Below, in pieces: positions 1,057 through 48,990 of a stretch of 64,000 nt of DNA. Source of the stretch: Erythrobacter litoralis. GTDB taxonomy: Bacteria; Pseudomonadota; Alphaproteobacteria; Sphingomonadales; Sphingomonadaceae. The DNA lies in assembly GCF_001719165.1 (NCBI RefSeq), contig NZ_CP017057.1, forward strand, positions 2,908,501-2,972,500. The letters run 5' to 3'. The number at the start of each line of letters is the position of its first letter. The first letter of the stretch is position 1. The notes beneath the pieces were generated by a model that made no database searches, was not told the DNA's origin, and saw nothing but the letters and a program-made list of their open reading frames with translations. The position numbers were made by a program, and so were the translations under genes.

Positions 1057-1072
1057 GATTTGTCCGGACATC
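1057..1072. promoter_or_regulatory. Palindromic operator 1 (GntR-type), divergent promoter
   Basis: GATTTGTCCGGACATC: core TGTCCGGACA at 1061-1070 is a perfect palindrome; the outer positions are weaker than at the other sites. It lies 12 bases ahead of the 1044 start on the minus strand and about 37 bases ahead of the 1109 start on the plus strand, so one site can control both units. It is one of eight copies in the first 49 kb. Confidence 0.75.
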
Positions 1073-1108
1073 TTTACCAAGCATGGCGCGCTGGGCTAGG
1101 CAAGCGGG

Positions 1109-1738
1109 ATGATCAGGCAGGCCGCGCTCATCGTCCTTGTCGCCGCTGCCCCGGCGTTCGCCGAGGACCGGCTCGCGCCCGGCATCTGGACCAACACCGA
1201 GGACAGCTATTTCGCCGAGGAGGAAGGCCGCGAGCGCGCGTCGGACCTTGCCTTCGAAATTGCCGCCGATGGAAGCTGGCGTGCGCTGGACGCTTTCGGT
1301 GTGCCGCAGGGCGACTGGAGCGAAGGGCCCATACCCGGCCTCGAGCGCCGCGAAACCGGCTCGGGCTGGCAGGTCGAGGGCAGCGAGCTGCGGCGCGCGC
1401 GGATGTTCGCCTGCTGGCTTTCCGCCCGGAAATTCGCCGACAAGCCCGACGGCAGCGAAGACTGGACGTTCGCGCGCGCACTGAGCGTGTTCGACCAGGG
1501 CGGGCGCGTGATCGTCCCCGGCAAGGGCGCAGCGCCCGACATCACGCTGAGAATGCGCAACGTCACCTGGGCGAAAGGCAGTCGCAATCGACCCAGCCTC
1601 GTGCTCTATGTGCACAAGGACGACCCCGAGCGGGCCGAGAGCTATGCCTGGGCCTCGCCCGATGCGAGCCTTGTCGGCATCAACCTGCGCTGGGTGCAGG
1701 CAAGCTGTTCGCTCGACCAAGGAGAGGCACAGAGATGA
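1109..1738 (+). CDS. Secreted protein of unknown function
   Basis: 209 residues starting MIRQAALIVLVAAAPAFA, a short Sec signal peptide with an AFA cleavage site. The mature protein (about 190 residues) has no motif I recognise; it contains two cysteines near residues 95 and 200 that could pair in the periplasm. It is the first gene of a four-gene unit and its stop overlaps the next start (ATGA at 1735-1738), so it is translationally coupled to the quinone reductase. It stands directly behind operator 1. Confidence 0.65.
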   Translation: MIRQAALIVLVAAAPAFAEDRLAPGIWTNTEDSYFAEEEGRERASDLAFEIAADGSWRALDAFGVPQGDWSEGPIPGLERRETGSGWQVEGSELRRARMFACWLSARKFADKPDGSEDWTFARALSVFDQGGRVIVPGKGAAPDITLRMRNVTWAKGSRNRPSLVLYVHKDDPERAESYAWASPDASLVGINLRWVQASCSLDQGEAQR

Positions 1739-2712
1739 AATCCACCCGCGCCGAAATCCGCAAACATGGCGGCCCCGAAGTCATTGCCTTCGTCGAAGAG
1801 GACGCCCCCGCGCCCGGCCCCGGCGAGGTTCTGATCGAACACGGGGCCGTCGGGCTCAATTTCATCGACACCTACCACCGCACCGGGCTCTATCCGGTCG
1901 AACTGCCGAGCGGCCTCGGGCTCGAGGCGGCGGGCCGGATCGTCGCGCTGGGCGAAGGCGTGACCGGTTATGCCGAGGGCGACCGTGTCGCCTATATGGG
2001 CCCCGGCCTCGGCGCCTATGCGACGCACAGGGTCATGCCCGCTTCCGCCCTGTTCAAGGTGCCGGACGGCATTTCGGACGAGATCGCCGCTGCCGCGATC
2101 CTCAAGGCCGCGACCACCGAAGGCCTCGTCGATCGCTGCGCAAAGGTGCAGGCGGGCGACACCGTACTGGTCCATGCCGCAGCGGGCGGGGTCGGGCTTA
2201 TCATGGTGCAATGGCTGAAAGCGATCGGGGCGAGCGTGATCGGGACCGTCTCGACGGCGGCCAAGGCGGACATCGCGCGCGAAGCGGGCTGCGACCACGT
2301 GATCCGCTATGACGAGGAGGAAATCGCCTCGCGCGTGCGCGAGATCACCGATGGGGCGGGTGTTCCGACCGTCCTTGACGGGGTGGGCAAGGACACTTTC
2401 ATGGCCTCGCTCGACAGCCTCGCCCCGCGCGGGCTGCTCGTCAGTTTCGGCAATGCGAGCGGACCGGTCGACGGGGTCAATCTCGGCGTGCTTGCGCAGA
2501 AGGGCTCGCTTTTCGTCACCCGTCCGACCCTGTTCCACTATTACGCGAGCGCGCAGGAGCGCGAGGCGGGCATGGGCCGGGTGTGGGAGATGATCGAAAG
2601 CGGCAAGGTCAAGGTCACGGTCGGCCAGACCTATCCGCTTGGCGAGGCCGCACAGGCGCACCGCGATCTCGAGGCGCGCAGGACCACCGGATCGACGGTG
2701 CTCGTCCCATGA
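1735..2712 (+). CDS. Zinc-free MDR quinone oxidoreductase (QorA-like)
   Basis: 325 residues, the usual length for NADPH:quinone reductases of the medium-chain dehydrogenase/reductase family. The N-terminal GroES-like domain lacks the zinc cysteines. The Rossmann domain shows HAAAGGVG at residues 147-154, the nucleotide-binding motif of the quinone reductase subfamily, and the family GSLFVTRP...Y segment is present further on. It would transfer electrons from NADPH to a quinone or an enone. It overlaps both neighbours by four bases (ATGA), so it belongs to the unit behind operator 1. Within this island a role in reducing an unsaturated intermediate is possible but not shown. Confidence 0.85.
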   Translation: MKSTRAEIRKHGGPEVIAFVEEDAPAPGPGEVLIEHGAVGLNFIDTYHRTGLYPVELPSGLGLEAAGRIVALGEGVTGYAEGDRVAYMGPGLGAYATHRVMPASALFKVPDGISDEIAAAAILKAATTEGLVDRCAKVQAGDTVLVHAAAGGVGLIMVQWLKAIGASVIGTVSTAAKADIAREAGCDHVIRYDEEEIASRVREITDGAGVPTVLDGVGKDTFMASLDSLAPRGLLVSFGNASGPVDGVNLGVLAQKGSLFVTRPTLFHYYASAQEREAGMGRVWEMIESGKVKVTVGQTYPLGEAAQAHRDLEARRTTGSTVLVP

Positions 2713-3260
2713 GGTTGTCCCGCCTGCTCGCGCCGCTCGCCGCGCTCGCGCTTGTCTCCTGCGTGGGCATCGAACCGCCGGTCGCCGCCACCCCGACGAA
2801 TGAACGCTCGAGCGCCGGGCTGATCGAGGCGGGGGCCCATTGGCAGGTGCTCTACGAAGCGGGCGAATGGGCCGAACTGCGCACGCTCTACGCCGACGAC
2901 GCGGTCCTGATGACGCAGGGCCAGCCCAGGATCGAAGGGGCGGACGCGATCCTCGCCTTCCTGCAGCGACTGCCCGAAGCCGGTGCGCAGGTGGCATTCC
3001 GTTTCGAGCCGGAAGAGGCGGTGGTCGAAGGCGAAACGGGCTTCGTCACGGCGAAATACCGCATGGACATCGCCTTTCCGGGCAAGCAGCCCAGCGTGGT
3101 CGTGGGGCGCAGCTTCCTCGTCTACAGATGGCAGGACGGCATGTGGAAGCTGTGGCGCGACATCGACAATCTCGCGCCCGACGTGACGCCGCAGGATTTC
3201 GCGCGCCAGGCTATTTCTTCCACGCAGCGCCGCCGACCCAGTCGCCCGCTACAGCCATGA
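2709..3260 (+). CDS. Lipoprotein with SnoaL/DUF4440-like domain
   Basis: 183 residues. The N-terminus ends in a lipobox LVSC (cysteine 18), so the protein is likely anchored in the outer membrane. The rest has the NTF2-like pattern of DUF4440/SnoaL proteins: an amphipathic helix, then LRTLYADDAVLM, a GADAILAFLQ helix and strands ending in YRWQDGMWKLWRDI. Such domains bind or isomerise small molecules. It starts in an ATGA overlap with the reductase. Its 3' end overlaps the convergent YciI-like gene by 50 bases, which is unusual and may cause antisense interference. Confidence 0.75.
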   Translation: MRLSRLLAPLAALALVSCVGIEPPVAATPTNERSSAGLIEAGAHWQVLYEAGEWAELRTLYADDAVLMTQGQPRIEGADAILAFLQRLPEAGAQVAFRFEPEEAVVEGETGFVTAKYRMDIAFPGKQPSVVVGRSFLVYRWQDGMWKLWRDIDNLAPDVTPQDFARQAISSTQRRRPSRPLQP

Positions 3261-3516
3261 ATTCGTCCGCCCGGATCGCCTGCCACACCCCGGCGCGGAA
3301 ATAGGGATCGGCTTCGAATATCGCGCGCGCGCCGACCTCGTCCTCGGCCTTGATCACCAGCAGCGAGCCGACCGTCGCGCCGTCCTGCCTGAGCGGACCG
3401 GCGACCGCGTAATCGCCGATATGCGCCTCCACATGGGAGAGATGGTCTTCGAGCAGGCGGCTGCGCAATGCCTCGCCCTGTTCCCCGTCGCGGCAATAGA
3501 AGGCGTAAAGTTTCAT
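3211..3516 (-). CDS. YciI-like protein
   Basis: 101 residues beginning MKLYAFYCRDGE. The pattern of a short first strand, SRLLEDHLSHVEAHI helix with the conserved His, the GPL segment, SLLVIKAEDEVGARAIFEADPY and a final W-EF-A segment fits the YCII/YciI family (ferredoxin-like fold, related to dehydrochlorinases and muconolactone isomerases). It is the last gene of the long leftward unit. Its ATG overlaps the stop of the VOC gene at 3513. The ORF extends upstream with alternative codons, but the M at 3516 fits the family N-terminus. Confidence 0.8.
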   Translation of the reverse strand: MKLYAFYCRDGEQGEALRSRLLEDHLSHVEAHIGDYAVAGPLRQDGATVGSLLVIKAEDEVGARAIFEADPYFRAGVWQAIRADEFMAVAGDWVGGAAWKK

Positions 3517-4415
3517 GCCCCCGTTTCTACGCATTCGACGAGCTCTCCGCCAGCGCCGATCGCTGTTGCCGCGCGGCGGCCTTCGTAGAGCGCCCCCTCG
3601 CGCGGGGATGGCGGGGCGAGCCATTCGGCGGTGCAGTCGTCGAGGTCCTCGACCGCCAGCGTGACCAGAGCATTGCCGGGCGGGAGCTTGCCGTCATGGC
3701 GCGCGCGCGGGGCCGCCTCGTCCGGGTAATCGTCGACTTCGACGATCGGCATGCGGCCATGGCTCACCATGGTGATCGTCGTCTGCGTGTCGGGCGCAAG
3801 GCCAAAGGCGTCGTTGATCATGCTGTAGGGAAGCGTGTAATCCTCACCCCGCCTGAGGGCGAGGCGATCGCAATACCACGCGATGCTGGCCTCGCGGTCG
3901 GGGGTCGCCAGCACCACGATGAAGATCCTGTCCACCCGCGATCCCGCGCGCGGCAGGTCGGTGTCGGGCAGGTCGCCAAGGACCTGATTCAGATAGACCA
4001 TCTCGCGCCCCGGCCCCAGCGCCTGCATCGGGATGAAGGCGGGTTCTATGTTCTCGAGCACCTTGGGCGGGCCGACGATGGTGAAGAGGTCGGCGGGAAG
4101 CGCCTCGGGCCAGTGCCAGACATCCTCGACCGTGGTCTCGAACGCGGCCCAGCCATAGGTCGTGGTCGGCTTGAAATCGGGGTGGTTTGCCTGTTCGACC
4201 AGCCGGAACCAGCACGGCGCGCCGCTTTTCGGGCGCAGCACGGCATAGGGCGAACCGGCATTGCCGGGGCAGCCCCAGCTTGCGGCGAGCCCTTCGGGAA
4301 GCTCGCCGCGCTCGACGAGGTCGAGGCCGAGCGTATCGCGATAGGCGGCAAGGCCGCGTTCGAGATCGGGCAGGGTCGAAAGCCCGCCCATGATCGTGCC
4401 GTGAAGGATGGTCAT
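3513..4415 (-). CDS. Two-domain VOC (glyoxalase/dioxygenase fold) protein
   Basis: 300 residues with two vicinal-oxygen-chelate modules: one about residues 5-130 (LERGLAAYRDTLGLDLVERGE) and one about residues 160-295 (IFIVVLATPDREASIAWYCDRLALRRGEDYT). The repeated one-his-strand architecture is that of glyoxalases, extradiol dioxygenases and isomerases; I cannot tell the reaction, and several of the usual metal ligands are not obvious. It overlaps the crotonase gene upstream (ATGA at 4412-4415) and the YciI-like gene downstream, so it is cotranscribed with acyl-CoA genes. Confidence 0.75.
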   Translation of the reverse strand: MTILHGTIMGGLSTLPDLERGLAAYRDTLGLDLVERGELPEGLAASWGCPGNAGSPYAVLRPKSGAPCWFRLVEQANHPDFKPTTTYGWAAFETTVEDVWHWPEALPADLFTIVGPPKVLENIEPAFIPMQALGPGREMVYLNQVLGDLPDTDLPRAGSRVDRIFIVVLATPDREASIAWYCDRLALRRGEDYTLPYSMINDAFGLAPDTQTTITMVSHGRMPIVEVDDYPDEAAPRARHDGKLPPGNALVTLAVEDLDDCTAEWLAPPSPREGALYEGRRAATAIGAGGELVECVETGA

Positions 4416-5170
4416 TTGCCGAACTCCGGTTTGCGCTTCTCGACGAAGGCGCTGGTGCCTTCGAGGAAATCCGGGCCGGTGAAGGCCTCGGCGAAGATCC
4501 GCAGCGTGTCGGCATCGTCCTCGGCCTGCCCGTCAAGCACGCGGCGCACGAAACGCTTGGTCTCGCGGATCGAATGGGGGCTCGCGGCAAGCAATTGCTC
4601 GATAAGGGTCGCAGGGTCATGGGCGATCGTCTCGACCAGCCCGATCCGCAGCGCCTCCTCCGCCGACAGCAGCCCGCCGGTGTAGAGAATGCGCTTGGCC
4701 TGTCCCGGCCCGACCAGATCGGTCAGCAGTTTCACGTCGTGCAGCGGGTATACGAGGCCGAGCTTTGCAGGTGTGATGCCGAAACGCGCCCTGTCCGTCG
4801 CCACGCGCAGGTCGCAGGCTAGCGCGATGCCGCAGCCCCCGCCGATGCAGTCGCCCTCGATGAAGGCGAGAGTGGGCAGGGGGTGGCGGGCAAGTTCGTA
4901 CTGCACCCGGTTGATAGCGCGCTGGTTCGCCGCGCGCCAACCGGCATCGTCCTTGTTCGCCAGAAGCTCGCGGATGTCCGCGCCCGCGCAGAACGCCCCG
5001 TCCGGCTCGGCCGCGCGCACCACGACAAGGCGCAGGTCCGGGTTCGCCGCCGCTTCATCGAGCAGGCCCGGCAGCGCCTCCCACATCGCCATGTCGAAGG
5101 CGTTGCGCTTGTCCGCACGGTCGATCAGCAGGTGGCCGACGCGCCCCTCGATTTCCAGCCGCACGTTCAT
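4412..5170 (-). CDS. Enoyl-CoA hydratase/isomerase (crotonase) family protein
   Basis: 252 residues. The oxyanion-hole segments AFCAGADI (59-66) and GDCIGGGCGIAL (107-118) place it in the crotonase superfamily. Both glutamates that do acid-base catalysis in classical enoyl-CoA hydratases appear to be missing: glycine stands at residue 114 where the GGGCE motif has Glu, and alanine at 135 where the PE motif has Glu. So a simple hydratase reaction is doubtful; thioester hydrolysis, isomerisation or C-C cleavage are alternatives. The start at 5170 overlaps the stop of the deacetylase gene upstream by ATGA. Confidence 0.85.
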   Translation of the reverse strand: MNVRLEIEGRVGHLLIDRADKRNAFDMAMWEALPGLLDEAAANPDLRLVVVRAAEPDGAFCAGADIRELLANKDDAGWRAANQRAINRVQYELARHPLPTLAFIEGDCIGGGCGIALACDLRVATDRARFGITPAKLGLVYPLHDVKLLTDLVGPGQAKRILYTGGLLSAEEALRIGLVETIAHDPATLIEQLLAASPHSIRETKRFVRRVLDGQAEDDADTLRIFAEAFTGPDFLEGTSAFVEKRKPEFGK

Positions 5171-6039
5171 GCCGGGTGGGTTTCCATGAAGTGATCCGCG
5201 ATGGCCTTGCGCGTCGTCACCCACACGCCGTCATGCTTGCGGACATGGCGGAAGAATTCCTCCAGCGCCCAGACCCGCCCGGGGCGTCCGATGATCCGCA
5301 AATGCAGGCCGAGGCTCATCATCTTCGGGTTCCCTTCCTCGCCCTCGCGGTAGACCTGGTCGAAATTGGCCTTGGCATAATCGAGCCATTGATGCGGGGT
5401 GAGCGCGGGGTCGGTCCACATCTTCATGTCGTTGTTGTCGAGCTGGTAGGGGACGATGCACATGGGCCTTCCCGGCACCGTGTCGCGGTCCCAGTAGGGA
5501 ACGTCGCCGCTGTAATCGTCCATGTGGTAGGTAAAGCCTTCCTCGCTCAGGAGCCGCCGCGTGTTGTCGGTCAGGAGATAGCGCGACAACCAGCCATGCG
5601 GACGCTGCCCGCAGGTTGTCTCGATGCTGGTCACGGCCTTGCGGATGAAATCGCGTTCCGCCTCCTCGTCCATCTTGAACTGGTGGACCCAGCGCCAGCC
5701 ATGGCTGACCGGTTCGTGGCCGAGTTCGACGATGGCCTCCGCGATCTCCGGGTGGTTTTCAAGGGAGAGAGCGGCGACCGTCCAGCTTGCCATGATGTCA
5801 TAGCGTTTCAGCAGCTTGACGATGCGCGGCGCGCCCGCCTTGATCCCGTAGAGGTAGTTCGATTCATTCGAATAGTTGCGCATCTTCGACTTCACGAAGA
5901 CGCCCAGCTCGTCGACCGGCTCCATCCCGCGGTCGCCCCGCGCGATGGTCATCTCGCTGCCTTCCTCGACATTGACGACCACCGAAAGCGCCATCTTCGC
6001 GCCGGCGGGCCAGTCCATTCGTTCCTCGGTGAGCGGCAT
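5167..6039 (-). CDS. PuuE-like polysaccharide-deacetylase-fold hydrolase
   Basis: 290 residues. The NodB-type barrel shows LGHEPVSHGWRWVHQF, which matches the GHE-SHGWRW metal-binding motif of PuuE-type allantoinases, and CGQRPHGWLSRY, the matching downstream motif. PuuE and related cyclic-imide hydrolases open cyclic ureide or imide rings; chitin-type deacetylation is less likely without a signal peptide. It is the first of three such proteins in the island (others at 37048 and 37959). It overlaps the SDR gene start-to-stop and the crotonase gene, so it is part of the leftward acyl-CoA operon. Confidence 0.8.
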   Translation of the reverse strand: MPLTEERMDWPAGAKMALSVVVNVEEGSEMTIARGDRGMEPVDELGVFVKSKMRNYSNESNYLYGIKAGAPRIVKLLKRYDIMASWTVAALSLENHPEIAEAIVELGHEPVSHGWRWVHQFKMDEEAERDFIRKAVTSIETTCGQRPHGWLSRYLLTDNTRRLLSEEGFTYHMDDYSGDVPYWDRDTVPGRPMCIVPYQLDNNDMKMWTDPALTPHQWLDYAKANFDQVYREGEEGNPKMMSLGLHLRIIGRPGRVWALEEFFRHVRKHDGVWVTTRKAIADHFMETHPA

Positions 6040-6839
6040 CAGTGCATCTCCTCCCCGCCGGAGACGTTGAGCGCCTCGCCCGTCACGTAGAAGGCATCCT
6101 CGCTCGCGAGCCACAGACAGGCCGCCGCCGTGTCCGAAGGAAGGCCCGGACGGCCCATCGGGTTCTTCGCGCTCATGTTGGCGAGGTAGGCCTCTACGGT
6201 CTCGAAGCCGAGCAGCTTCGAGAAGTATTCGTTCTGCTTGGCGCCGAGGCCTGTCGTGACATGGTTCGGGCACACCGCGTTCACCGTGATGCCGTGCGCG
6301 CCGAGTTCGACCGCGCTCGCCCGCGTCAGGCCGACCATGCCGTGCTTGGAAGAGACATAGGCGGGCAGGTGCGGGAAGCCCGATTTCGCCGCCTGGCTGG
6401 CAATGTTGATGATCCGCCCGCCTTGCCCGCGGTCGACCATGGCGCGCGCGGCGGCCTGCGTGCCGTAGAACGCGCCCGACAGGTTGACGGCGATGACCTT
6501 GTCCCATTCCTCCGCCGTGTCGACTTCGAGCAGGGGCTTCATCTTGAAGCCGATCCCGGCATTGTTGACGAAGACATCGACGCCGCCGAATTCGCTCACC
6601 GCCGCGGCGGCCAGCGCGCGGCATTGCCCTGCATCGGAGACGTCGCAGGCGACCGTCAGGACCTTGGCCCCGCGTCCCCGCAGTTCCTCGGCGACTTCCT
6701 CGGCCTCGGCGTCGATCGTCACGTCCGAGACGACGCAGTTCGCGCCCTCGTCGGCGAAGGCCTGCAATATGCCCTGCCCGAGCCCCTTGTGCTTGCCCGA
6801 TCCGGTGACAACGACCGTTTTCCCGTCGAAGCGCGCCAT
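6039..6839 (-). CDS. Short-chain dehydrogenase/reductase (classical SDR)
   Basis: 266 residues, typical SDR length. Cofactor motif TGSGKHKGLGQG (12-23) is slightly extended; NNAG at 92-95; catalytic S148, Y161 and K165 (YVSSK) are all present. An acidic residue (SDV, about 38-40) after beta-2 suggests NAD(H) preference. The C-terminal YVTGEALNVSGG is standard. It likely oxidises a hydroxyl group of a pathway intermediate. Only one base separates it from the HapK-like gene, and it overlaps the deacetylase gene by one base. Confidence 0.9.
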   Translation of the reverse strand: MARFDGKTVVVTGSGKHKGLGQGILQAFADEGANCVVSDVTIDAEAEEVAEELRGRGAKVLTVACDVSDAGQCRALAAAAVSEFGGVDVFVNNAGIGFKMKPLLEVDTAEEWDKVIAVNLSGAFYGTQAAARAMVDRGQGGRIINIASQAAKSGFPHLPAYVSSKHGMVGLTRASAVELGAHGITVNAVCPNHVTTGLGAKQNEYFSKLLGFETVEAYLANMSAKNPMGRPGLPSDTAAACLWLASEDAFYVTGEALNVSGGEEMH

Positions 6840-6840: not shown

Positions 6841-7149
6841 CTACAGGTCCTTGGTCAGGATGAATTGCGGCGCATCGGCAAAGCCTTGGAAGGGCGCGGC
6901 GGCGGCCTGGAAATCTTGCGTAGAGATATCGGCGACGAATACGTCCATGGAGGTCACGTCAATGATCTCGATATAGTCGAAATGCGGCCTCGCATTCTCG
7001 TCGCCGAACACGCCCACCGACTTGTGCACGGTAAAGCTCGTCACCGAGCCGAGGCGGTTCACCGTCGGCAGGTCGCGGGTCTTCGCCCATTCCTCGTATT
7101 CGGCGACGTCGACTCCGGGCTTCAGGTTGAACAGGCAGATGATGCGCAT
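6841..7149 (-). CDS. REDY-like HapK family protein
   Basis: 102 residues starting MRIICLFNLKPGVDVAEYEEWAKTRD. The length, the RLGSV segment and the IEIIDVTSMDVF segment fit the HapK/REDY family, small dimeric alpha/beta-barrel proteins related to EthD and antibiotic monooxygenase folds. HapK homologues occur in pigment and natural-product clusters, but no catalytic role is established to my knowledge. The gene sits between the amidase and SDR genes with gaps of 3 and 1 bases, so it is co-transcribed. Confidence 0.8.
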   Translation of the reverse strand: MRIICLFNLKPGVDVAEYEEWAKTRDLPTVNRLGSVTSFTVHKSVGVFGDENARPHFDYIEIIDVTSMDVFVADISTQDFQAAAAPFQGFADAPQFILTKDL

Positions 7150-12188: not shown

Positions 12189-12214
12189 GACGCCGCCTGG
12201 CCGATGAAGGGTCG

Positions 12215-15345: not shown

Positions 15346-15359
15346 CGCGCCGACCCCGC

Positions 15360-17979: not shown

Positions 17980-17993
17980 GGACGAATTGCGGA

Positions 17994-18007: not shown

Positions 18008-18055
18008 CGCGCCGGCCTATCCGTAGAGCGGACAACAGCGCGGGAGGTCAAGTTC

Positions 18056-39535: not shown

Positions 39536-39680
39536 GAAGCTCCCCTCTGCGGTCAGTGCCTTGTCGGCGCGATAGGCGCGTATCCGACACGCGAACGAGG
39601 CTCGCCACGAACGTGTCCGACTGGCGGTTTTTACGCTTTGACAGCGCACAATAAAGCCGCGTAAGGCCATGTCGAGTGAA

Positions 39681-39696
39681 ATTTGTCCGGACAACT
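39681..39696. promoter_or_regulatory. Palindromic operator 7
   Basis: ATTTGTCCGGACAACT, core TTGTCCGGACAA at 39683-39694. It sits in the 189-bp region between the divergent isochorismatase (39535) and hydrolase (39725) genes. TTGACA at 39638-39643 could be the -35 of the rightward promoter, but I see no good -10. Confidence 0.85.
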
Positions 39697-39724
39697 TGAG
39701 CCCGCGAGCCGCGAGAGGGATTCC

Positions 39725-41107: not shown

Positions 41108-41614
41108 ATGATCGACATGGCCAAGGAAATGCCGCTCCTCGCCCGCCACGAAGGGGTGTGGGACGGGACCTACACCTATTTCAACGCCGACAACGAAAAG
41201 GTGGACGAACACGCCAGCCGCCTGCTGTGCCGCATGACGGGCGACGACGAGATCCCCTATCACCAGACCAATTACTACACCTGGCCCGACGGCAGGACCG
41301 AAGTGCGCGATTTCCCCGCGTCCTATCGCGACGGGCGCATCTGGTGGGACAACGAACTGATCCAGGGCTGGGCCGCCGAAGTGCCGCTGGATGATAAGAA
41401 CCGCACGATGATGCTCTACTGGCAGCGCACCGGCGATCCCTCGCTCTACCTTTACGAGCAGATCCAGATCAGCGACGACGGCAAGAATCGCTGCCGCACC
41501 TGGCACTGGATCCGCGACGGAAAGCTGGAGACGCGCACCGCGATCCAGGAGCATTTCGTGACGAAGGACTGGAAGACAATTGACGAGGAAATGAAGGCGA
41601 AACACGGCGCCTGA
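41108..41614 (+). CDS. Lipocalin-like (DUF3598-type) protein (B)
   Basis: 168 residues, MIDMAKEMPLLARHEGVWDGTYTYF. It is the paralogue of the 35172-35633 protein, with the same G-W-G opening, WPDGRTE, RIWWDNELIQGW and CRTWHWIRDGK. No signal peptide. ATG directly after the hydrolase stop. One copy in each of the two divergent units from operator 7 suggests the two proteins act on related intermediates. Function not known. Confidence 0.7.
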   Translation: MIDMAKEMPLLARHEGVWDGTYTYFNADNEKVDEHASRLLCRMTGDDEIPYHQTNYYTWPDGRTEVRDFPASYRDGRIWWDNELIQGWAAEVPLDDKNRTMMLYWQRTGDPSLYLYEQIQISDDGKNRCRTWHWIRDGKLETRTAIQEHFVTKDWKTIDEEMKAKHGA

Positions 41615-41622: not shown

Positions 41623-43002
41623 ATGGGACGCACCCTGTTCGATCACGTCTGGGACACGCATTTCGTCGCCGACACGGCGGGCGGAGCGGCGCTGGTCGCG
41701 ATCGACCGGGTGTTCCTGCACGAACGCACCGGGGCCGCCGCGCTCGCCCGCATGGCCGAGATGGGGCGCACCGTGCGCGACCCCGCGCGGGTCTTCGCCG
41801 TGATGGACCACATCGTCGACACCCGCCCCGGGCGCGGCGACGGCACGCTGATGCCGGGCGGCGAGGGCTTCATCACCGAAACCCGCGCCGCCTGCCGCGC
41901 GGCTGGCATCACCCTGTTCGACGTCAATGACAGCGCGCAGGGCATCGTCCACGTGATCTCGCCCGAACAGGGGATCGTCCTGCCCGGCCTGACGCTCGTC
42001 GCGCCCGACAGCCACACCTGCACGCAAGGAGCCTTCGGCGCGCTGGCGTGGGGCATCGGATCGAGCGAGGCAGAACACGCGATGGTGACGGGCACGCTCC
42101 GCCTCGAAAAGCCGAAGACCATGCGCGTGACCTTCAAGGGCGCGCTTGCGCCCGGCGTGACGGCGAAGGACATGATCCTGACGTTGATCGCCCGCCACGG
42201 CGCGGGCGGGGGCGCGGGCCATGTCGTCGAATTCGCCGGGGAAGCGGTCGCCGCGCTCGACATGGAAGCGCGCATGACCCTGTGCAACATGGCGACCGAA
42301 TTCAGCGCGATGACCGGCCTGATCGCGCCGGACGAGACGACTTTCGAATATCTCGCGGGGCGGCCCTATGCGCCGGACAATTTCGACGATCCCTATTGGC
42401 AGACGCTCCGCTCGGACGAGGACGCGACCTTCGACCGCGAGATCGTGATCGAGGCCGCCGACATCGCCCCGATGGTGAGCTGGGGGACGAGCCCCGAACA
42501 TACCATCCCCGTCACCGCCGCCGTCCCGCAGGGCCCGGCGCGCGCGCATGATTATATCGGCCTTGAAGCGGGCAGAGCGCTCGCCGGGACGCCGGTGGAT
42601 GCCGCCTTCATCGGCAGCTGCACCAATGCGCGCCTCAGCGACCTCAGGCGGGCCGCCGCCATCCTGAAGGGCCGCCATATCGCCCCCTCGATCAGGAAGG
42701 CGCTGGTCGTCCCCGGCTCGCTTTCGGTCAAGCGCGCGGCCGAGGCGGAGGGGCTCGACGCGATCTTCGCCGCGGCCGGGTTCGAATGGCGCATGAGCGG
42801 GTGTTCGCTGTGCTTCTATGCCGGCGGCGAGGGTTTCCCCGAAGGATCGCGCGTGATTTCAAGCACCAATCGCAATTTCGAAGGGCGTCAGGGCCCCGGC
42901 ATCCGCACCCACATCGCCTCGCCCGAAACCGTCGCGGCGAGCGCGATTGCGGGCGTCATTGCGGACCCGCGCGAATATGCGCGCGCGAAGGAACCGGCAT
43001 GA
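41623..43002 (+). CDS. Aconitase-family dehydratase, large subunit (LeuC-like)
   Basis: 459 residues. The [4Fe-4S] ligands are Cys333 (GSCTNAR), Cys394 and Cys397 (SGCSLC); VAPDSHTCTQGAFGALAWGIG and STNRNFEGRQG are further family motifs. Length and small-subunit pairing match LeuC, but CSLC replaces the leucine-pathway CSMC and there is no leuA or leuB nearby. Dehydration/hydration of a branched C5-C6 dicarboxylate (citramalate, dimethylmalate or maleate type) fits the HMG-CoA-lyase-like and CoA-transferase neighbours. Confidence 0.9.
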   Translation: MGRTLFDHVWDTHFVADTAGGAALVAIDRVFLHERTGAAALARMAEMGRTVRDPARVFAVMDHIVDTRPGRGDGTLMPGGEGFITETRAACRAAGITLFDVNDSAQGIVHVISPEQGIVLPGLTLVAPDSHTCTQGAFGALAWGIGSSEAEHAMVTGTLRLEKPKTMRVTFKGALAPGVTAKDMILTLIARHGAGGGAGHVVEFAGEAVAALDMEARMTLCNMATEFSAMTGLIAPDETTFEYLAGRPYAPDNFDDPYWQTLRSDEDATFDREIVIEAADIAPMVSWGTSPEHTIPVTAAVPQGPARAHDYIGLEAGRALAGTPVDAAFIGSCTNARLSDLRRAAAILKGRHIAPSIRKALVVPGSLSVKRAAEAEGLDAIFAAAGFEWRMSGCSLCFYAGGEGFPEGSRVISSTNRNFEGRQGPGIRTHIASPETVAASAIAGVIADPREYARAKEPA

Positions 43003-43649
43003 CCGCCTTCCCCCAACCGCTGACGGGCATTGCCGCGCCGCTCCATCTCGACAGGCTCGCCGACAACCCCAATCACGTCGGCGGGCTCGCCGACAATGTC
43101 GACACCGACGCGGTCATTCCCAGCCGCGAAATGCGCTCGACCGGGCGCACCGGGCTGGCGGACGGGCTGTTCGCGCCGTGGCGTTACAGCGATGCCGATG
43201 CGCGCACGCCCGATCCCGATTTCGTCCTCAACCGCCCCGAATATTGCAACGCGACCATCCTCGTCGCAGGCAGCAATTTCGGCTGCGGGTCGAGCCGCGA
43301 ACACGCGGTCTGGGCGCTTGCCGAATACGGTTTTCGCGCGGTTCTGGCCGAAAGCTTCGCGCCGATATTTCGCGGCAATTGCATCCGCAATTTCGTCCTC
43401 CCCGTCGCCCTCCCGCGCGAGGTGCTGGAGAGCATCGCGGGCCAAGTGGTCGAAATCGATCTCGCCGCGCAGGAAGTGCGCTGCCGGGGCGAGGTCCACC
43501 CCTTCGAGATCGACCCGGAAGCGAAGCGGATGCTGGCCGATGGGCTGGACGCGATCGACCTCACGCTGACGCAGGGCGCGGCGATAGATGCATGGACCGG
43601 GGCCGACCGCAAGGCGCGCCCGTGGGTATACCTGGAGAGAACGCAATGA
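42999..43649 (+). CDS. Aconitase-family dehydratase, small subunit (LeuD-like)
   Basis: 216 residues. NVDTDAVIPSREM (substrate-side motif) and GSNFGCGSSREHAVWAL are the LeuD swivel-domain hallmarks, followed by AESFAPIFRGNCIRNFVLPV. It completes the hetero-dimeric dehydratase with the large subunit. The ATG overlaps the large-subunit stop (ATGA), which gives balanced synthesis. Confidence 0.92.
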   Translation: MTAFPQPLTGIAAPLHLDRLADNPNHVGGLADNVDTDAVIPSREMRSTGRTGLADGLFAPWRYSDADARTPDPDFVLNRPEYCNATILVAGSNFGCGSSREHAVWALAEYGFRAVLAESFAPIFRGNCIRNFVLPVALPREVLESIAGQVVEIDLAAQEVRCRGEVHPFEIDPEAKRMLADGLDAIDLTLTQGAAIDAWTGADRKARPWVYLERTQ

Positions 43650-44566
43650 CCGACATCCTCGTATCCGAGGTCGGCCCGCGCGACGGGCTGCAATCGATCG
43701 ACCGGGTGATGCCCCTGGAAGCCAAGAAACGCTGGATCGCGGCCGAAGCGGCGGCGGGCGTGAAGGAGATCGAGGTCGGCAGCTTCGTGCCGCCCAAGCT
43801 GCTCCCGCAGATGGCCGACACCGCCGAACTGGTCGCCTTTGCACGCGGCATCGAGGGGCTGAACGTCGTCGCGCTCGTCCCCAACGCCAAAGGTGCGAGC
43901 CGCGCCGCCGAGGCAGGGGTGCACGCCATGTCCATCCCCTTCTCGATGAGCGAGACGCACTCGATCAAGAACGTGCGCAAGGACCATCCCGCCATGATCG
44001 CGGAGATCGCGGCGGCGTCCGCCATCGCGCGCGAACATGACATCCATTTCGCGGTCGGCCTGTCCACCGCATTCGGCTGCACGATGGAGGGCGCGGTTGC
44101 CGAGGATCAGGTCGTGCGCCTCGCCGAAAAGGCGGTGGAAGCGGGGGCCGAGGAACTCTCCCTGTCCGACACGACCGGCTATGCCGACCCGGCGCAGGTC
44201 CGCAGGCTCACCCGCAAGGTGCGCGCGGCGGTGGGCGCGGACAGGCTGACAACGCTCCACCTCCACAACACCCGCGGGCTTGGCCTCGCGAACGTGGTGG
44301 CCGGGCTGGAGGAAGGGATCACCACCTTCGATGCCTCATTGGGCGGGCTCGGCGGCTGCCCGTTTGCGCCCGGTGCGAGCGGGAATCTCGTGACCGAGGA
44401 CCTCGTCCTGATGCTCAATGCGATGGGGCTGAAGACCGGGATCGACCTCGAAAAACTGCTGGAGGTGCGCAGAATCGTCGAAGAGGCGCTGCCGGGCGAG
44501 CCGCTCTACGGCTTCACCCCCGATGCCGGGCCGATGCTCGATTACAAGCAGAGGGCCGCGGCATGA
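43646..44566 (+). CDS. Hydroxymethylglutaryl-CoA-lyase-like enzyme
   Basis: 306 residues. SEVGPRDGLQS opens the TIM barrel (metal-binding Asp), GSFVPPKLLPQMAD follows, LSDTTGYADP and LHLHNTRGLGLANV carry the His ligands, and GGLGGCPFAPGASGN is the HMG-CoA lyase signature with the catalytic Cys. It splits a 3-hydroxy-3-methyl-dicarboxylyl-CoA to acetyl-CoA or propionyl-CoA and a keto acid. Overlaps the LeuD-like gene and is followed by a CoA-transferase gene that can supply its substrate. Confidence 0.92.
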   Translation: MTDILVSEVGPRDGLQSIDRVMPLEAKKRWIAAEAAAGVKEIEVGSFVPPKLLPQMADTAELVAFARGIEGLNVVALVPNAKGASRAAEAGVHAMSIPFSMSETHSIKNVRKDHPAMIAEIAAASAIAREHDIHFAVGLSTAFGCTMEGAVAEDQVVRLAEKAVEAGAEELSLSDTTGYADPAQVRRLTRKVRAAVGADRLTTLHLHNTRGLGLANVVAGLEEGITTFDASLGGLGGCPFAPGASGNLVTEDLVLMLNAMGLKTGIDLEKLLEVRRIVEEALPGEPLYGFTPDAGPMLDYKQRAAA

Positions 44567-45744
44567 GCGCTCCCCAGCCGCTGAAGGGCATCAAGGTCGT
44601 CGAATTCACCCACATGGTGATGGGGCCGACGGTGGGGCACATCCTCGCAGGCCTCGGCGCCGAGATCGTGCGGATCGAGCCGATCGGAGGCGACCGCACG
44701 CGGCGGCTGAAGGGTTCGGGCGCGGGCTATTTCCCGATGTACAACCGGGGCAAGGCCTCGATCTGCCTCGACCTCAAGAGCGAGGAGGGCATCGCGGTGG
44801 CGAAGGACCTCGTCGCGGGGGCGGACGTGCTGGTCGAGAACTTCCGCCCCGGCGCGCTCGACCGGCTGGGCCTCGATTACGAAAGCTGCGCAAAGGCCAA
44901 TCCGCGCCTGATCTATGCTTCCGAAAAGGGCTTCCTCCCCGGACCCTACGAACAGCGCACGGCGCTGGACGAGGTCGCGCAAATGATGGGCGGGCTCGCC
45001 TACATGACCGGCCCTCCCGGAAAGCCGCTGCGCGCCGGGGCGAGCGTGATCGACGTCACCGGCGGAATGTTCGGCGTCATCGGCATTCTCGCCGCATTGG
45101 AGGAACGCCACCGCACCGGACGCGGGCAGAAAGTCACCGCGAGCCTGTTCGAGACGACGATCTACCTCGTCGGCCAGCACATGGCGCAGTATGCCGTGAC
45201 CGGCACGCCCGCCGCGCCCATGCCCGCGCGCGTTTCCGCCTGGGCGATCTACGACGTGTTCGAGACGAAGGACGAGCCCGTCTTCATCGGCGTCGTCACC
45301 GATGCGCTGTGGGAGAAGTTCTGCAAGCTGTTCGGCCTCGACGAATTGTGGGCGGACGAAAGCTTGCGCGAAAACAACGCGCGGGTCGATGCGCGCGACC
45401 GCATCCTGCCCGTCATCCGCGAGTTGGTCGCGACGATGACGCGCGAAGAGGTGATCGCGAAGCTCGACGGATCGGGCCTGCCCTTCGCGCCGATCGGCAA
45501 GCCTCAGGACATGTTCGACGATCCGCACCTTGCCCAAGGGGGCCTCGAGGACGTGACGCTCGACAACGGGACCGAGGTCCGCCTGCCGACCATCCCGCTC
45601 GAGATGGACGGCAAGAGGATCGGCGCCCCGCAGCACCTGCCCAAACCGGGGCGCGACGCGCGCGAGGTGCTGGCAGGCCTCGGCTATGACGAGGACAGGA
45701 TCGCCGCGCTGATCGCGGGCGGCGCAGTGGGAGAGAGCGCATGA
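44563..45744 (+). CDS. CaiB/BaiF class III CoA-transferase (copy 3)
   Basis: 393 residues. LKGIKVVEFTHMVMGPTVGH, LGAEIVRIEPIGGD, NRGKASICLDLKSEEG and RHRTGRGQK are the family landmarks; the Asp in SVIDVTGGMFG is the probable nucleophile. It overlaps the lyase and lipoprotein genes by ATGA. Position suggests CoA activation of the hydroxy acid formed by the LeuCD-like enzyme, before cleavage by the HMG-CoA-lyase-like protein. Confidence 0.92.
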   Translation: MSAPQPLKGIKVVEFTHMVMGPTVGHILAGLGAEIVRIEPIGGDRTRRLKGSGAGYFPMYNRGKASICLDLKSEEGIAVAKDLVAGADVLVENFRPGALDRLGLDYESCAKANPRLIYASEKGFLPGPYEQRTALDEVAQMMGGLAYMTGPPGKPLRAGASVIDVTGGMFGVIGILAALEERHRTGRGQKVTASLFETTIYLVGQHMAQYAVTGTPAAPMPARVSAWAIYDVFETKDEPVFIGVVTDALWEKFCKLFGLDELWADESLRENNARVDARDRILPVIRELVATMTREEVIAKLDGSGLPFAPIGKPQDMFDDPHLAQGGLEDVTLDNGTEVRLPTIPLEMDGKRIGAPQHLPKPGRDAREVLAGLGYDEDRIAALIAGGAVGESA

Positions 45745-46331
45745 GGATGGTGGTGCTGGGCTGTGCCACGCTGCTGGCGGGATGCAGCGTCAATATCGGC
45801 AACGAAACGCCGCCGCCAGCCAGCGCCCCGCGCGCCGCCGGGGTGGAGGCTCCGCAAGAGCGCCTGCCGACCGATGTGCGCCGTGCGACGATCATCGTGC
45901 GCGACATGGAGAAATCGCTTCGCCTCTATCGCGACGTGATCGGGCTCGAGGTCAATTACGACACCACCGTCACCACCAGCGGCGTCGCCCTGCCCGCAGG
46001 TGAGCCGGGGGCGACCGCTCGGCTCGTCCTGCTGAACGCCAATGACCCGTGGGTCGGCTGGATCGGCCTGATGGAATGGACCAGCCCCCCCATCCCGGCG
46101 GACGATTACCCCAAGCGCATGGGGCCGGGCGATGTCGTGCTGGTGCTCAACACCGACGATGTCGAGGGGCGCTGCGCCGCGGCCAAGGACGTTCCCGGCG
46201 TCACCTTCACCGCCGAACCGCGCCTGCAGGTCTATCCGGGCCGCGACGGGGGTGCGGAGATCCGGGTGATGGGGTGCAATTTCTTCGACCCGGACGGCAT
46301 CCTGATCGAGCTCAATCAGATACTGGACTGA
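45741..46331 (+). CDS. VOC-domain lipoprotein
   Basis: 196 residues. Lipobox LLAGC (Cys15), a Pro/Ala linker to about residue 45, then one VOC domain: RRATIIVRDMEKSLRLYRDVIGLEV through GCNFFDPDGILIELNQ. It is the last gene of the unit from operator 7. A membrane-anchored VOC protein is uncommon; together with the secreted VOC protein at 25214 it points to chemistry outside the cytoplasm. Its end overlaps the convergent DUF1330 gene by 20 bases. Confidence 0.82.
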   Translation: MRMVVLGCATLLAGCSVNIGNETPPPASAPRAAGVEAPQERLPTDVRRATIIVRDMEKSLRLYRDVIGLEVNYDTTVTTSGVALPAGEPGATARLVLLNANDPWVGWIGLMEWTSPPIPADDYPKRMGPGDVVLVLNTDDVEGRCAAAKDVPGVTFTAEPRLQVYPGRDGGAEIRVMGCNFFDPDGILIELNQILD

Positions 46332-46626
46332 TATCCGGCCCGTCGATCAGCAGCACCTGCACGTCGGCGAGGCCCTCGCGCAGCTTCTTCGCCTCGGCGT
46401 ATTCGGGCGAATTCCAGAACCGCCTGGCTGCCTCGCGATCGGGCCATTTCGAGATGACCATGCTCGCGCCCTCTCCGAAATCGCCCTCGAGGCATTCGGC
46501 GCCCGGCCCGCGCAGCAAATATTCACCGCCGAACTGCCCGATCAGCTCGGCCGCGCGCGCGCCATAGCCCGAGACGAAGGCCTCGCGGTCGCGGATCGAG
46601 GCGGTGACGATCATGTAGGCGGGCAT
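46312..46626 (-). CDS. DUF1330 family protein
   Basis: 104 residues, MPAYMIVTASIRDREAFVSGYG. The FGGEYLLRGPG turn and SKWPDREAARRFWNSPEYAEAKKLRE helix are the DUF1330 pattern (dimeric ferredoxin-like fold). No signal peptide, unlike the copy at 34648. It ends the leftward unit from operator 8, ten bases after the membrane protein gene. Function unknown; related proteins are stress or pathway accessory factors. Confidence 0.85.
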   Translation of the reverse strand: MPAYMIVTASIRDREAFVSGYGARAAELIGQFGGEYLLRGPGAECLEGDFGEGASMVISKWPDREAARRFWNSPEYAEAKKLREGLADVQVLLIDGPDISPVSD

Positions 46627-46637
46627 TGCTCTCTCCT

Positions 46638-47330
46638 TCAGAAGGGCTTCACGGCCCCGAGGAAACACACCGAGGCGATGGTGATCCAGTAGACATAGGC
46701 CGACCACCGCGCGAGGCCGATCTCCTGCGCCAGCGCGGCCTCCTGCGCCGCGTCCGGACCGGCGGCGAGCACCCGGAACCTTTCGGTCCAGCGCCGCATG
46801 ACAAGCCGCAGGAACAGCCCGATGACGAGCGCGAAGGCATAAAGCGCCATCTTAGCCGGATACCAGTCATTGCCCTCGCCCGACTGGATCGGCCCGGTCC
46901 CGGCAAAGGCCATCGCGGCGAAGATGAACAGGGCGGCGATCAGCGGGTAGCGCAGCAATTCCTCGGCGCGGGTGACCTTGATGCCGATATCGGTCTCGCG
47001 CTTGATGAAGGCGGTCCAGGTCATCGCCAGCCAGACGGCGAAGAACAGCCACATGAGCCACACGCCCGCCCCTTCGAGCAGCGGCACGAAGCCGTAGATC
47101 TTGCCCATGTGCAGCCCCAGCGGGAGCAGCAGGACGATGCCGGTGCGCGCGAGGATGTCGATGCGATAGGCGGTTTCCATGTGCCGCCGCCGCTCTTCCA
47201 GCGAAAGCGCGGGATTGGTGACGTGATAGCTCGTCTGGAACACGCCCCATTCCCCGCCCAGCCAGTAGACCATGGCGAGGATGTGGATCCACCTGAGGAT
47301 GGACAGCTCATTGAGATACAGGAATTCCAT
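46638..47330 (-). CDS. Multi-pass membrane protein, paralogue of the 21732 gene
   Basis: 230 residues with about five or six membrane segments. The opening RWIHILAMVYWLGGEWGVF and the ending CFLGAVKPF parallel VYVHLLLFVLWLG and LGNVKPLP of the 21732-22409 protein. The conserved His and Trp in the first segment are worth noting as possible haem or quinone ligands. It lies between the DUF1330 gene and the small methyltransferase-coupled gene. No assigned function. Confidence 0.75.
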   Translation of the reverse strand: MEFLYLNELSILRWIHILAMVYWLGGEWGVFQTSYHVTNPALSLEERRRHMETAYRIDILARTGIVLLLPLGLHMGKIYGFVPLLEGAGVWLMWLFFAVWLAMTWTAFIKRETDIGIKVTRAEELLRYPLIAALFIFAAMAFAGTGPIQSGEGNDWYPAKMALYAFALVIGLFLRLVMRRWTERFRVLAAGPDAAQEAALAQEIGLARWSAYVYWITIASVCFLGAVKPF

Positions 47331-47378: not shown

Positions 47379-47747
47379 CTATTCGCGCGAAAGCTTCTCC
47401 ACGATGTCCATGATCGGCGGGTCTGAGGCTTCCATCGCCTCGACCTCCTGCTGGAAACCGCGCATGATCCGCGCGACATAGGCGCGCGTTGCAAGGCCGC
47501 GCTCTTCGGCGGCGGTGCGGTCGGGCTCGTAGCGTTCGATGTCCGCGCGGCTGATCGTGCCCTTTTCATCGAGCAGGCGTTCGACCGTATCCTGCCTCTC
47601 GCGCAGGGCGGATACCTCTGCGGCGAGCGCGAAGACGGTGGAATAGAGCCGGTCGAGCGCGGGGTCGTCGAAATATTCGGGCCGCTTGCCCCTGGCCTTG
47701 CGCCCCGATGCCGCGACCCAGTCGAACGGCTCGCCGTCCTCGCTCAC
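47379..47747 (-). CDS. Small protein coupled to methyltransferase, unrecognised family (B)
   Basis: 122 residues starting at GTG in a GTGA overlap with the methyltransferase stop, the same arrangement as at 33219-33470. The RPEYFDDPALDRLYSTVFALAAEV block is shared with protein A; the C-terminal 60 residues (heptad-like, EERGLATRAYVARIMRGFQQEVEAME) are longer and probably coiled coil. An obligate partner of methyltransferase B is my inference. No catalytic residues are apparent. Confidence 0.7.
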   Translation of the reverse strand: MSEDGEPFDWVAASGRKARGKRPEYFDDPALDRLYSTVFALAAEVSALRERQDTVERLLDEKGTISRADIERYEPDRTAAEERGLATRAYVARIMRGFQQEVEAMEASDPPIMDIVEKLSRE

Positions 47748-48958
47748 GCGGCCTGCTCCTGCGCGATCGGTTTCCACGCGCCATAGGCGTTCCAGATCGC
47801 GGCGCGGCCGAAATCCTCTTCCCCGTCATCGGGCGAGGGCGGGAAGATTTCCGGATCGACCACCGCGCGCACCCCGGCGGTGAATTGCGCATCGCGCGGG
47901 AAGCCGGCCTTCGCCATGACCTCCTTCAGATCCTGCCCGTGCATGGCGGACCAGAACGGCTCGTTGTTGTTGAAGGCGTCCCAGTCGCGCATGAACTGTT
48001 CGAACAGCGGCATGTCATCGGAATATTGCGGCTGCTCGATATGCAGGATCAGCCCGCCGGGCGCGAGCACGCGGTTCGCCTCTTCCATGATGCGCGGCAT
48101 GGCCTTGGCCGAAAGCTCGTGCAGGAACATCGTCGTCTGGACCCAGTCGAAATGCCCGTCGGCCCAGCGCGACAGGTCCTCCCCCGAAGCCTGGACGAAA
48201 CGGATGTTCTTCACCCCCAGCGCCGCCGCGCGCGCCGCGCCATAGCGCAAGCTCGCCGCCGCGGTGTCGATCGCGATGACTTCCGCCTCGGGGAAGGCCT
48301 GCGCGATCGGCACGGCATTGTGGCCGATCGTGCAGCCGATATCGAGAATGCGGCGCGGCTTCCAATCGGGCCGCTCGGCCTTGACCCAGTCGACCACGGC
48401 CTGACCGCCGCCATCGTTGAGCCCGCCCAATGCGCCGCCGACAGTCGCGAACAGGCCGACATCGTAATTCGCGCCGACCGCGACATCGCCCGCGCGCTCC
48501 CCGCCGTGATAGCCGCCGGGCTGGCAGTGGATGTCGACCGCGGTCTGGTAAGAGGGCTGCTCCACGCTCGCATCGAGTTCGAGCATCCCGGAATGTTCGT
48601 TGTACTGCCGCGCCATGGCATCGAGTTCGTCGAGCTGGCGCAGCACCACCTGCCGCCCGAAATGCTGGCGCATCTCCATCGAATTGCGCTTCAGCGCCGA
48701 CCACATCCGGTGCCACTGATCCCGGTTCATGGCATCGCGGATTTCATAGCGATGGTCCGGATCGCGCCCGTGTTCGGCGCGAAAGGCGGGCAGGACGCGC
48801 TTTTCATAGGCGAGCTTGTTGCCGCTTCCGATGCTGCCCGAAAGGTAGCGATTGAAATGGGTGAGGAAATTGAACCGCGCCGCCTCGTCATGGGTCGTGC
48901 GCGGCATCATCTCGTGCCGGGTGAGCGCGGTATACGGGGGAGGAAGATCGCTGGCCAT
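47744..48958 (-). CDS. Class I SAM-dependent methyltransferase (B)
   Basis: 404 residues. N-terminal domain of about 200 residues with HGRDP and AVDIHCQPGGY, then the Rossmann domain with ILDIGCTIGHN (204-214), VIAIDTAA and TTMFLHELSAKA. It is the first gene of the four-gene unit behind operator 8. The ATG at 48958 has AAGGGTGA just upstream; ORF sequence further upstream runs through the operator. Paralogue of 33467-34651, sharing about a dozen short motifs. Substrate unknown; UbiE-like or natural-product tailoring enzymes are general relatives. Confidence 0.85.
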   Translation of the reverse strand: MASDLPPPYTALTRHEMMPRTTHDEAARFNFLTHFNRYLSGSIGSGNKLAYEKRVLPAFRAEHGRDPDHRYEIRDAMNRDQWHRMWSALKRNSMEMRQHFGRQVVLRQLDELDAMARQYNEHSGMLELDASVEQPSYQTAVDIHCQPGGYHGGERAGDVAVGANYDVGLFATVGGALGGLNDGGGQAVVDWVKAERPDWKPRRILDIGCTIGHNAVPIAQAFPEAEVIAIDTAAASLRYGAARAAALGVKNIRFVQASGEDLSRWADGHFDWVQTTMFLHELSAKAMPRIMEEANRVLAPGGLILHIEQPQYSDDMPLFEQFMRDWDAFNNNEPFWSAMHGQDLKEVMAKAGFPRDAQFTAGVRAVVDPEIFPPSPDDGEEDFGRAAIWNAYGAWKPIAQEQAA

Positions 48959-48972
48959 GATGTCACCCTTTG

Positions 48973-48990
48973 AATTTGTCCGGACAAATT
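48973..48990. promoter_or_regulatory. Palindromic operator 8
   Basis: AATTTGTCCGGACAAATT, an 18-bp perfect palindrome and the best copy in the window, 14 bases ahead of the methyltransferase B start. Confidence 0.9.

Follow-up and report, generated by a model that had tools for sequence, protein, structure and literature searches.

The window analysed here, the whole stretch of 64,000 nucleotides at positions 2,908,501-2,972,500 of Erythrobacter litoralis NZ_CP017057.1 (a genome of one contig, 3,251,353 bases), holds a 49-kb catabolic island in which one palindromic operator recurs ahead of receptor, transporter and enzyme genes, together with the gene of a GntR regulator of the HutC type (Table 1). 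Eight palindromes had been listed in an initial annotation, at 1061, 17957, 17996, 21682 (a variant), 22512, 22554, 39684 and 48977, and a search of the window found all of them at these coordinates, seven with the exact core TGTCCGGACA and the one at 21682 as TGTCCAGACA. Sequence comparisons suggest that the GntR protein encoded at 12215 is very probably the local regulator of the whole island through this 18-bp palindrome.

The operator is confined to the island. Allowing at most one mismatch, the core has 8 matches in the window, when shuffled windows give a mean of 1.59 and none of 100 shuffles reaches 8. The 18-mer AATTTGTCCGGACAAATT, at up to three mismatches, has 7 matches in the window against 0.01 expected, the site left out being the one at 17996, with an exact core and poorer arms. 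Over the whole genome the same 18-mer search returned 7 places, all inside the window (reversed control 0), and TTTGTCCGGACAA at up to one mismatch returned 8, again all inside (reversed control 1 per strand); a 12-mer at up to one mismatch added a single place outside the window, at 3,146,796, its reversed control giving 5 matches. The genome-wide search proposed in the initial annotation therefore finds a motif restricted to the island window and not scattered. A scoring matrix made only from the sites of relatives (123 sites from 47 loci, 45 of which have a site; they are not independent, as some share a contig, such as those of the L038 and G218 stretches) gives the eight sites 20.4-36.5 bits and the best other position of the window 6.2 bits, so that the right-hand 15 kb holds no site by this matrix, as initially reported. 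All eight sites fall outside gene calls although the region is 93% coding. Shuffles, reversed controls, genome-wide counts and matrix scores together rule out a chance motif or a genome-wide repeat.

By gene order, the eight sites precede ten inferred transcription units. Those at 17957 and 17996 separate g18, the first gene of the left operon, from g19; those at 22512 and 22554 separate g21 from the unit g22-g28; the site at 39684 separates the unit g35-g30 from g36-g42; and the site at 48977 precedes the unit g46-g43 and is also upstream of putA. The paired operators are 39 and 42 bp apart, and in the 47 loci of relatives 24 of the 29 pairs closer than 80 bp are spaced by 39, 40, 42 or 43 bp. 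Of the 13 relatives' loci in which a site lies no more than 200 bp ahead of the receptor-1-like gene, 11 have a variant centre there like that at 21682, a recurrence that suggests a tuned site.

The regulator combines a GntR winged helix-turn-helix domain (PF00392, 76.3 bits) with a UTRA domain (PF07702, 80.0 bits), both above the cut-offs, which places it in the HutC subfamily, and it is the sole UTRA protein found in the genome. It is not a HutC histidine utilisation repressor by the equivalog model (TIGR02018, 89.8 bits against a curated cut-off of 220 bits). HutC-type sites mostly carry GT and AC four nucleotides apart, according to PMC4494728, and the island sites have this spacing, as GT-CCGG-AC in seven and GT-CCAG-AC in one; the centre, CG or CA, departs from the TA of the HutC consensus (NyGTMTAKACNy), and the same paper mentions HutC-subfamily proteins with other motifs. 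In an alignment with NagR, the regulator has Arg56 at the position of NagR Arg48 and Thr46 at that of NagR Arg38, residues which, according to PMC4333415, read G-4 and G-5, respectively; the island operator retains G-4 and carries T at -5. The residues and the operator thus appear consistent with known HutC operators, although this is not proof, and the GTC-NN-GAC core of the sites agrees with the HutC-type operators described in PMC4494728 and PMC4333415, in line with the GTC-YR-GAC core that the initial annotation named for this subfamily.

The island regulon is a further case of the known local regulons of the GntR/HutC type, such as those of NagR/YvoA of Bacillus subtilis, DasR and HutC. 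It shares with them the winged helix-turn-helix and UTRA architecture, a GT/AC palindrome with four-nucleotide spacing and sites in intergenic DNA that precede genes for uptake and catabolism and, with NagR, the arginine at the Arg48 position; a site at the regulator gene, as in those systems, exists in some relatives of the island only, and the regulator gene of the window has none. It differs by its CG instead of TA operator centre, by T instead of G at -5, by the threonine at the NagR Arg38 position and by its large target set of about 45 genes in ten inferred units with two TonB receptors. No publication on this operator core together with a GntR protein was found in literature that included few subscription papers.

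The distribution of the motif follows that of the regulator. Orthologues, defined by at least 44% identity and E 5.8e-48 or better, occur in 39 of 298 genomes of the family; seven GntR matches at 30-34% identity, in six genomes, were set aside as non-orthologues. A search for the exact 13-mer gave 50 of the 298 genomes, namely 38 of the 39 with an orthologue and 12 of the 259 without (Fisher 2.7e-36, a value that overstates independence since the family genomes are related). The reversed 13-mer occurs in 16 of the 298 genomes, 13 of them among the same 259, and the 12 motif-bearing genomes without orthologue can thus be taken as background. The one exception with an orthologue and no exact 13-mer (G132; L180, G132:C1:1225001-1245000) is a decayed cluster, where gntR is retained beside pieces of PuuE2, CaiB1 and MmgE2 and the rest is gone. 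Counts of the 12-mer at up to one mismatch in 20 chosen of 45 regulator-matched genomes gave matches in all 20 and were not used as evidence, because the reversed control also gives 2-12 per genome.

The enzyme genes provide a control for this association. The isochorismatase-family gene g35, sought in 246 genomes of the order, was found in 38 at E 1e-100 or better; 30 of these loci were fetched and 24 of them examined for a site within 3.7 kb. The site is present in all 12 loci from genomes with an orthologue and in that of G299, whose GntR protein is 36% identical with the same recognition helix, and absent from all 11 3.7-kb loci of genomes with neither the orthologue nor this 36% relative. 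When nine neighbourhoods of g35 loci without orthologue were read more widely, eight held another GntR protein, 28-34% identical, with a recognition helix of the form SR[IV]T[AV][RK]R as against SR[FYH]T[VI]REAL in the island type. A search for an alternative palindrome of these other proteins (perfect 10-mers and imperfect 16-mers in nine loci sets) gave no convincing candidate. The initial proposal of one regulator for the whole regulon is thereby strengthened, as the motif is confined to the island and appears to follow the GntR orthologue rather than the enzyme genes.

We infer from these comparisons that a GntR dimer would bind the 18-bp palindrome at the eight intergenic sites, would most likely repress, and would be released when a pathway intermediate binds the UTRA domain, the receptors, the transporter and the enzymes then being induced together. 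Besides the relatedness of the family genomes, several points weigh against this reading. gntR has no operator within the window, and it separates the proximal from the distal half of the left operon, the latter running from 12188 to 3513; since gntR is on the opposite strand, control of the distal half by the site at 17957 needs read-through, and the genes past gntR may have another promoter. The initial statement that the sites precede nearly all units of the island therefore holds for the ten inferred units, with the exception of gntR and the reservation of read-through for the distal left operon. A genome with a 38% relative and the same helix (G309) shows no site in the two short contigs examined, and the gntR matches of site-bearing G411 and G299 are each interrupted by two in-frame stop codons. 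A sigma-70-like match overlaps 2 of the 8 operators, for a background of 4.9% of intergenic positions, with a consensus that may poorly cover alphaproteobacterial promoters.

Some of these points would be expected if an unlinked regulator bound the palindrome and the GntR protein were a passenger of the island, in particular the missing site at gntR in the window and the stop codons in the two site-bearing genomes. This is highly improbable, as the motif tracks the orthologue and is absent where the same enzymes accompany a different GntR protein, the core suits HutC-type operators, and the GntR protein is alone in the genome, as far as found, in having a UTRA domain. Moreover, 7 of 27 named relatives (L039, L040, L042, L043, L044, L046, L047) and G299 carry a site upstream of the gntR match, at a distance of about 40-120 bases, which points to self-control there. 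The GntR protein could also act as an activator or in a mixed way rather than as a plain repressor, which would fit the few promoter overlaps and the distance of some sites, 87-96 bp from the start codon; we consider this quite unlikely, since the promoter consensus may be limited and since publications on the solved HutC-type relatives NagR and DasR (PMC4333415 and other HutC papers) present both as repressors.

Several observations were made along with these surveys. The stop-containing gntR matches lie in L023 (10001-10765) and L156 (1501-2241), and operator sites persist in those genomes. In the Erythrobacter locus L040 the regulator gene is preceded by a site, yet of 13 island genes checked only 2 are nearby. 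A second regulator-like match at G060:C1:135053-135810, in two adjacent pieces, is probably a broken copy and is far from the motif cluster of that genome, and a loose match, TCCTTGTCTGGACACGTC, occurs in 40-kb stretches of G245, apart from the core genes.

Table 1. Genes and operators of the island, in positions of the 64,000-nucleotide window
Feature	Position	Strand	Description
GntR regulator	12215..12982	+	HutC type (GntR winged helix-turn-helix and UTRA); proposed repressor of the island
Operator 1	1057..1074		GATTTGTCCGGACATCTT; between divergent g01 (-) and g02 (+), the latter heading g02-g04
Operator 2	17953..17970		AATTTGTCCGGACAAATC; core 60 bp upstream of g18 (-); overlaps promoter-like match for g19
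Operator 3	17992..18009		GAATTGTCCGGACAATCG; 39 bp from operator 2; core 51 bp upstream of g19 (+)
Operator 4	21678..21695		AATTTGTCCAGACAAATT; core 96 bp upstream of TonB receptor 1 (-)
Operator 5	22508..22525		between g21 (-) and TonB receptor 2 (+)
Operator 6	22550..22567		42 bp from operator 5; core 87 bp upstream of TonB receptor 2 (+)
Operator 7	39680..39697		between g35 (-) and g36 (+)
Operator 8	48973..48990		perfect 18-bp palindrome; core 19 bp upstream of g46 (-); putA (+) on opposite side
g01	292..1044	-	putative secreted protein by eye; no Pfam family
g02	1109..1738	+	no Pfam family; present in several relatives
g03	1816..2712	+	zinc-type alcohol dehydrogenase/quinone reductase family; start approximate
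g04	2826..3260	+	SnoaL-like; start approximate
g05	3513..4415	-	glyoxalase/VOC family, 300 aa
g06	4412..5224	-	enoyl-CoA hydratase family
g07 PuuE1	5167..6060	-	PuuE/polysaccharide-deacetylase family (imidase-like); start approximate
g08	6039..6839	-	short-chain dehydrogenase
g09	6841..7149	-	HapK family
g10	7153..8298	-	amidase (PF01425)
g11	8303..9670	-	PaaK-like coenzyme A (CoA) ligase
g12	9667..10965	-	MmgE/PrpD family
g13	10962..12233	-	MmgE/PrpD family; start approximate
g15	12991..14091	-	CaiB-type (family III) CoA transferase
g16	14113..15435	-	CaiB-type CoA transferase; start approximate
g17	15360..16520	-	acyl-CoA dehydrogenase; start approximate
g18	17073..17897	-	HpcH/HpaI-family lyase, RipC-like
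g19	18056..19000	+	DUF1838
g20	19073..21586	-	TonB-dependent receptor 1
g21	21732..22409	-	membrane protein by eye, no family; in 7/7 relatives compared
g22	22650..25214	+	TonB-dependent receptor 2
g23	25214..26257	+	glyoxalase/VOC protein; start approximate
g24	26247..27443	+	beta-lactamase family (PF00144)
g25	27444..28742	+	MFS transporter
g26	28742..30304	+	FAD-linked oxidase (FAD_binding_4 family)
g27	30484..31461	+	nitrilase-like; apparent replacement of the Lys and Cys of the usual catalytic set; start approximate
g28	31458..32186	+	weak DUF3108 match, below Pfam cut-off
g29	32183..33217	-	zinc-type alcohol dehydrogenase family
g30	33467..34651	-	S-adenosylmethionine (SAM) methyltransferase
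g31	34648..35661	-	DUF1330 protein; start approximate
g32	35633..37099	-	aldehyde dehydrogenase
g33 PuuE2	37048..37962	-	PuuE/polysaccharide-deacetylase family
g34 PuuE3	37959..38849	-	PuuE/polysaccharide-deacetylase family; start approximate
g35	38852..39535	-	isochorismatase-family amidohydrolase (N-carbamoylsarcosine/maleamate amidohydrolase group)
g36	39770..41107	+	alpha/beta hydrolase; start approximate
g37	41108..41614	+	weak DUF3598 match, below Pfam cut-off
g38	41623..43002	+	LeuC-like hydratase large subunit
g39	42999..43649	+	LeuD-like hydratase small subunit; start approximate
g40	43649..44566	+	HMG-CoA-lyase-like; start approximate
g41	44563..45744	+	CaiB-type CoA transferase
g42	45741..46331	+	glyoxalase family
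g43	46312..46707	-	DUF1330
g44	46638..47330	-	membrane protein by eye
g45	47379..47777	-	no Pfam family
g46	47744..48958	-	SAM methyltransferase

The compound degraded, which the initial annotation left unidentified, can be narrowed to a probable cyclic-imide-type nitrogen compound. Judging from enzyme families and gene order, there is roughly an even chance that the island encodes two arms that run in parallel through the same reactions: a PuuE-type enzyme would open the cyclic imide, an amidase would take off ammonia, a hydratase would hydrate the unsaturated diacid, a CaiB-type transferase would form the CoA ester and a lyase would cleave it at a C-C bond. The left arm would consist of PuuE1, g10, the MmgE/PrpD pair, the CaiB pair and the HpcH-type lyase, with the PaaK-like ligase, acyl-CoA dehydrogenase, enoyl-CoA hydratase and short-chain dehydrogenase as extras for a carboxylated side chain; the right arm would consist of PuuE2/3, g35, the LeuCD-like hydratase, the third CaiB-type transferase and the HMG-CoA-lyase-like protein. 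The PuuE/HpPgdA group includes cyclic imidases, and HxnM and HxnN are the imidase and the amide hydrolase that act in this order in nicotinate breakdown in Aspergillus (PMC9304392). The island is related by family to the Pseudomonas putida imidase and HxnM of Aspergillus nidulans and would share the succession of HxnM and HxnN, and differs from them by its three paralogues and its CoA-dependent hydratase/lyase arms. It presumably shares the logic of a CaiB-type transferase and a C-C lyase with the degradation of itaconate through citramalyl-CoA (RipC) and with HMG-CoA lyase reactions; it differs from the itaconate route by a RipC-like protein below the cut-off and by MmgE/PrpD- and LeuCD-like hydratases. 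No publication on such an enzyme cluster or pathway was found in the same literature.

Family models give these assignments unequal precision. The g35 product has the isochorismatase-family domain (PF00857, 100.2 bits against a cut-off of 27). The catalytic residues of isochorismatase-family amidohydrolases are Asp, Lys and Cys; the Asp is kept in 6 of 6 and the Lys and Cys in 7 of 7 orthologues covering them, and a 40% identical paralogue (L107) in the same alignment keeps all three. The island LeuC (g38) is a paralogue, below the LeuC equivalog cut-off (TIGR00170, 527 against 560.25 bits), and the canonical LeuC lies elsewhere in the genome (776.6 bits). The products of g39 and g40 belong to the LeuD equivalog domain (TIGR00171, 173.3 against 116.25 bits) and the HMG-CoA lyase subfamily (NF004283, 276 against 246 bits), while that of g18 falls short of the RipC citramalyl-CoA lyase equivalog (NF038242, 219.9 against 375 bits). 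The nitrilase superfamily relies on a Glu-Lys-Cys triad; at what we take to be these positions, read by eye, g27 keeps the Glu and shows Lys to Arg and Cys to Ser replacements in all 7 aligned orthologues, which suggests either a non-catalytic or a changed enzyme.

Two of the family comparisons speak against an imide and suit a hydantoin- or ureide-type substrate for the same regulon, the PuuE-like proteins then being allantoinases or hydantoinases and g35 an N-carbamoylsarcosine-type amidohydrolase. Among solved relatives, PuuE allantoinase ranks first or second for PuuE1, PuuE2 and PuuE3, none of which reaches the allantoinase equivalog cut-off (TIGR03212, 252.3, 102.7 and 107.1 bits, respectively, against 424.6), and the solved protein closest to g35 is N-carbamoylsarcosine amidohydrolase (106.1 bits), which suits hydantoins equally. 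However, the next relatives of g35, 4l07 and 4l08 (97.0 and 92.9 bits), outrank a second N-carbamoylsarcosine enzyme (89.7 bits), with 3ot4 at 76.1 bits; we take these three entries to be maleamate enzymes. Such a substrate would moreover yield amino acids, and no aminotransferase or amine oxidase family was found among the scanned open reading frames of the island, while the LeuCD-like, CaiB and lyase enzymes suit an unsaturated diacid better. Overall, a hydantoin or ureide keeps a modest chance, and a cyclic imide is preferred.

Two differently substituted imides derived from one large imported molecule would explain both the two arms and the receptors. The island could, as a slim and speculative chance, mineralise under its HutC-type repressor substituted maleimides from (bacterio)chlorophyll or another tetrapyrrole: the TonB receptors would take up pigment fragments, the right arm would convert methyl/ethyl- or vinyl-maleimide into pyruvate and an acyl-CoA, and the left arm would process a carboxyethyl (hematinic-acid-like) maleimide once beta-oxidation has acted on its side chain. 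Such maleimides suit the enzymes chemically, and the evidence for this parent compound is mixed. Reaction-centre genes occur in 19 of 39 regulator-bearing genomes and 36 of 259 others (Fisher 2.8e-6, but with a weak signal within genera, z 1.9), one weak Photo_RC row below the cut-off (G118) being excluded from these 55 genomes. None of the 39 regulator-bearing genomes gave a match to the heme oxygenase family, whereas 26 of the 259 others did, which leaves a heme-oxygenase route to the imides unsupported. If true, the maleimide reading would give bacteria an end-of-life route for a pigment that is among the most abundant.

The gene set is conserved in different ways along the island. Of 27 named loci, which belong to Erythrobacter, Novosphingobium and Altererythrobacter, 17 have all 13 genes from g07 to g19 and some of the others are short contigs; most genes of the right half recur in the seven genomes compared (G281 and G092 being partly covered). 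A seven-gene core (g33, g34, g35, g38, g39, g40 and g41) recurs across the order under other regulators: in nine hand-chosen loci sets without orthologous GntR, where open reading frame calls are approximate and some genes were missed (G326), each core gene and a GntR protein are present in at least six sets, and g32 in three. The left operon appears to repeat the reaction order of this core with mostly unrelated enzymes and a beta-oxidation set. One solved case would thus help annotate a widespread pathway. On this reading the 49-kb island is a regulon defined by a single regulator, one operator and a fixed set of genes. Regulator and motif occur together in 38 of the 298 sampled family genomes. 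Since no second regulator of this type was found in the genome and the operator is almost perfect, the inducer, and hence the natural substrate, could be within reach of a simple screen based on binding or on a reporter.

No RNA families or tRNAs were found in the window. The two methyltransferases of the island (33467-34651 and 47744-48958), one in each of two units, have similar-looking N-terminal extensions. To the right of the island, a trypsin-domain protein with Sel1 repeats lies beside an opposite-strand TIR-TPR protein (55133-59772), possibly a defence-type pair, and a phage-type integrase (62533-63804) is found at the right edge of the window, past a ribonucleotide reductase gene.

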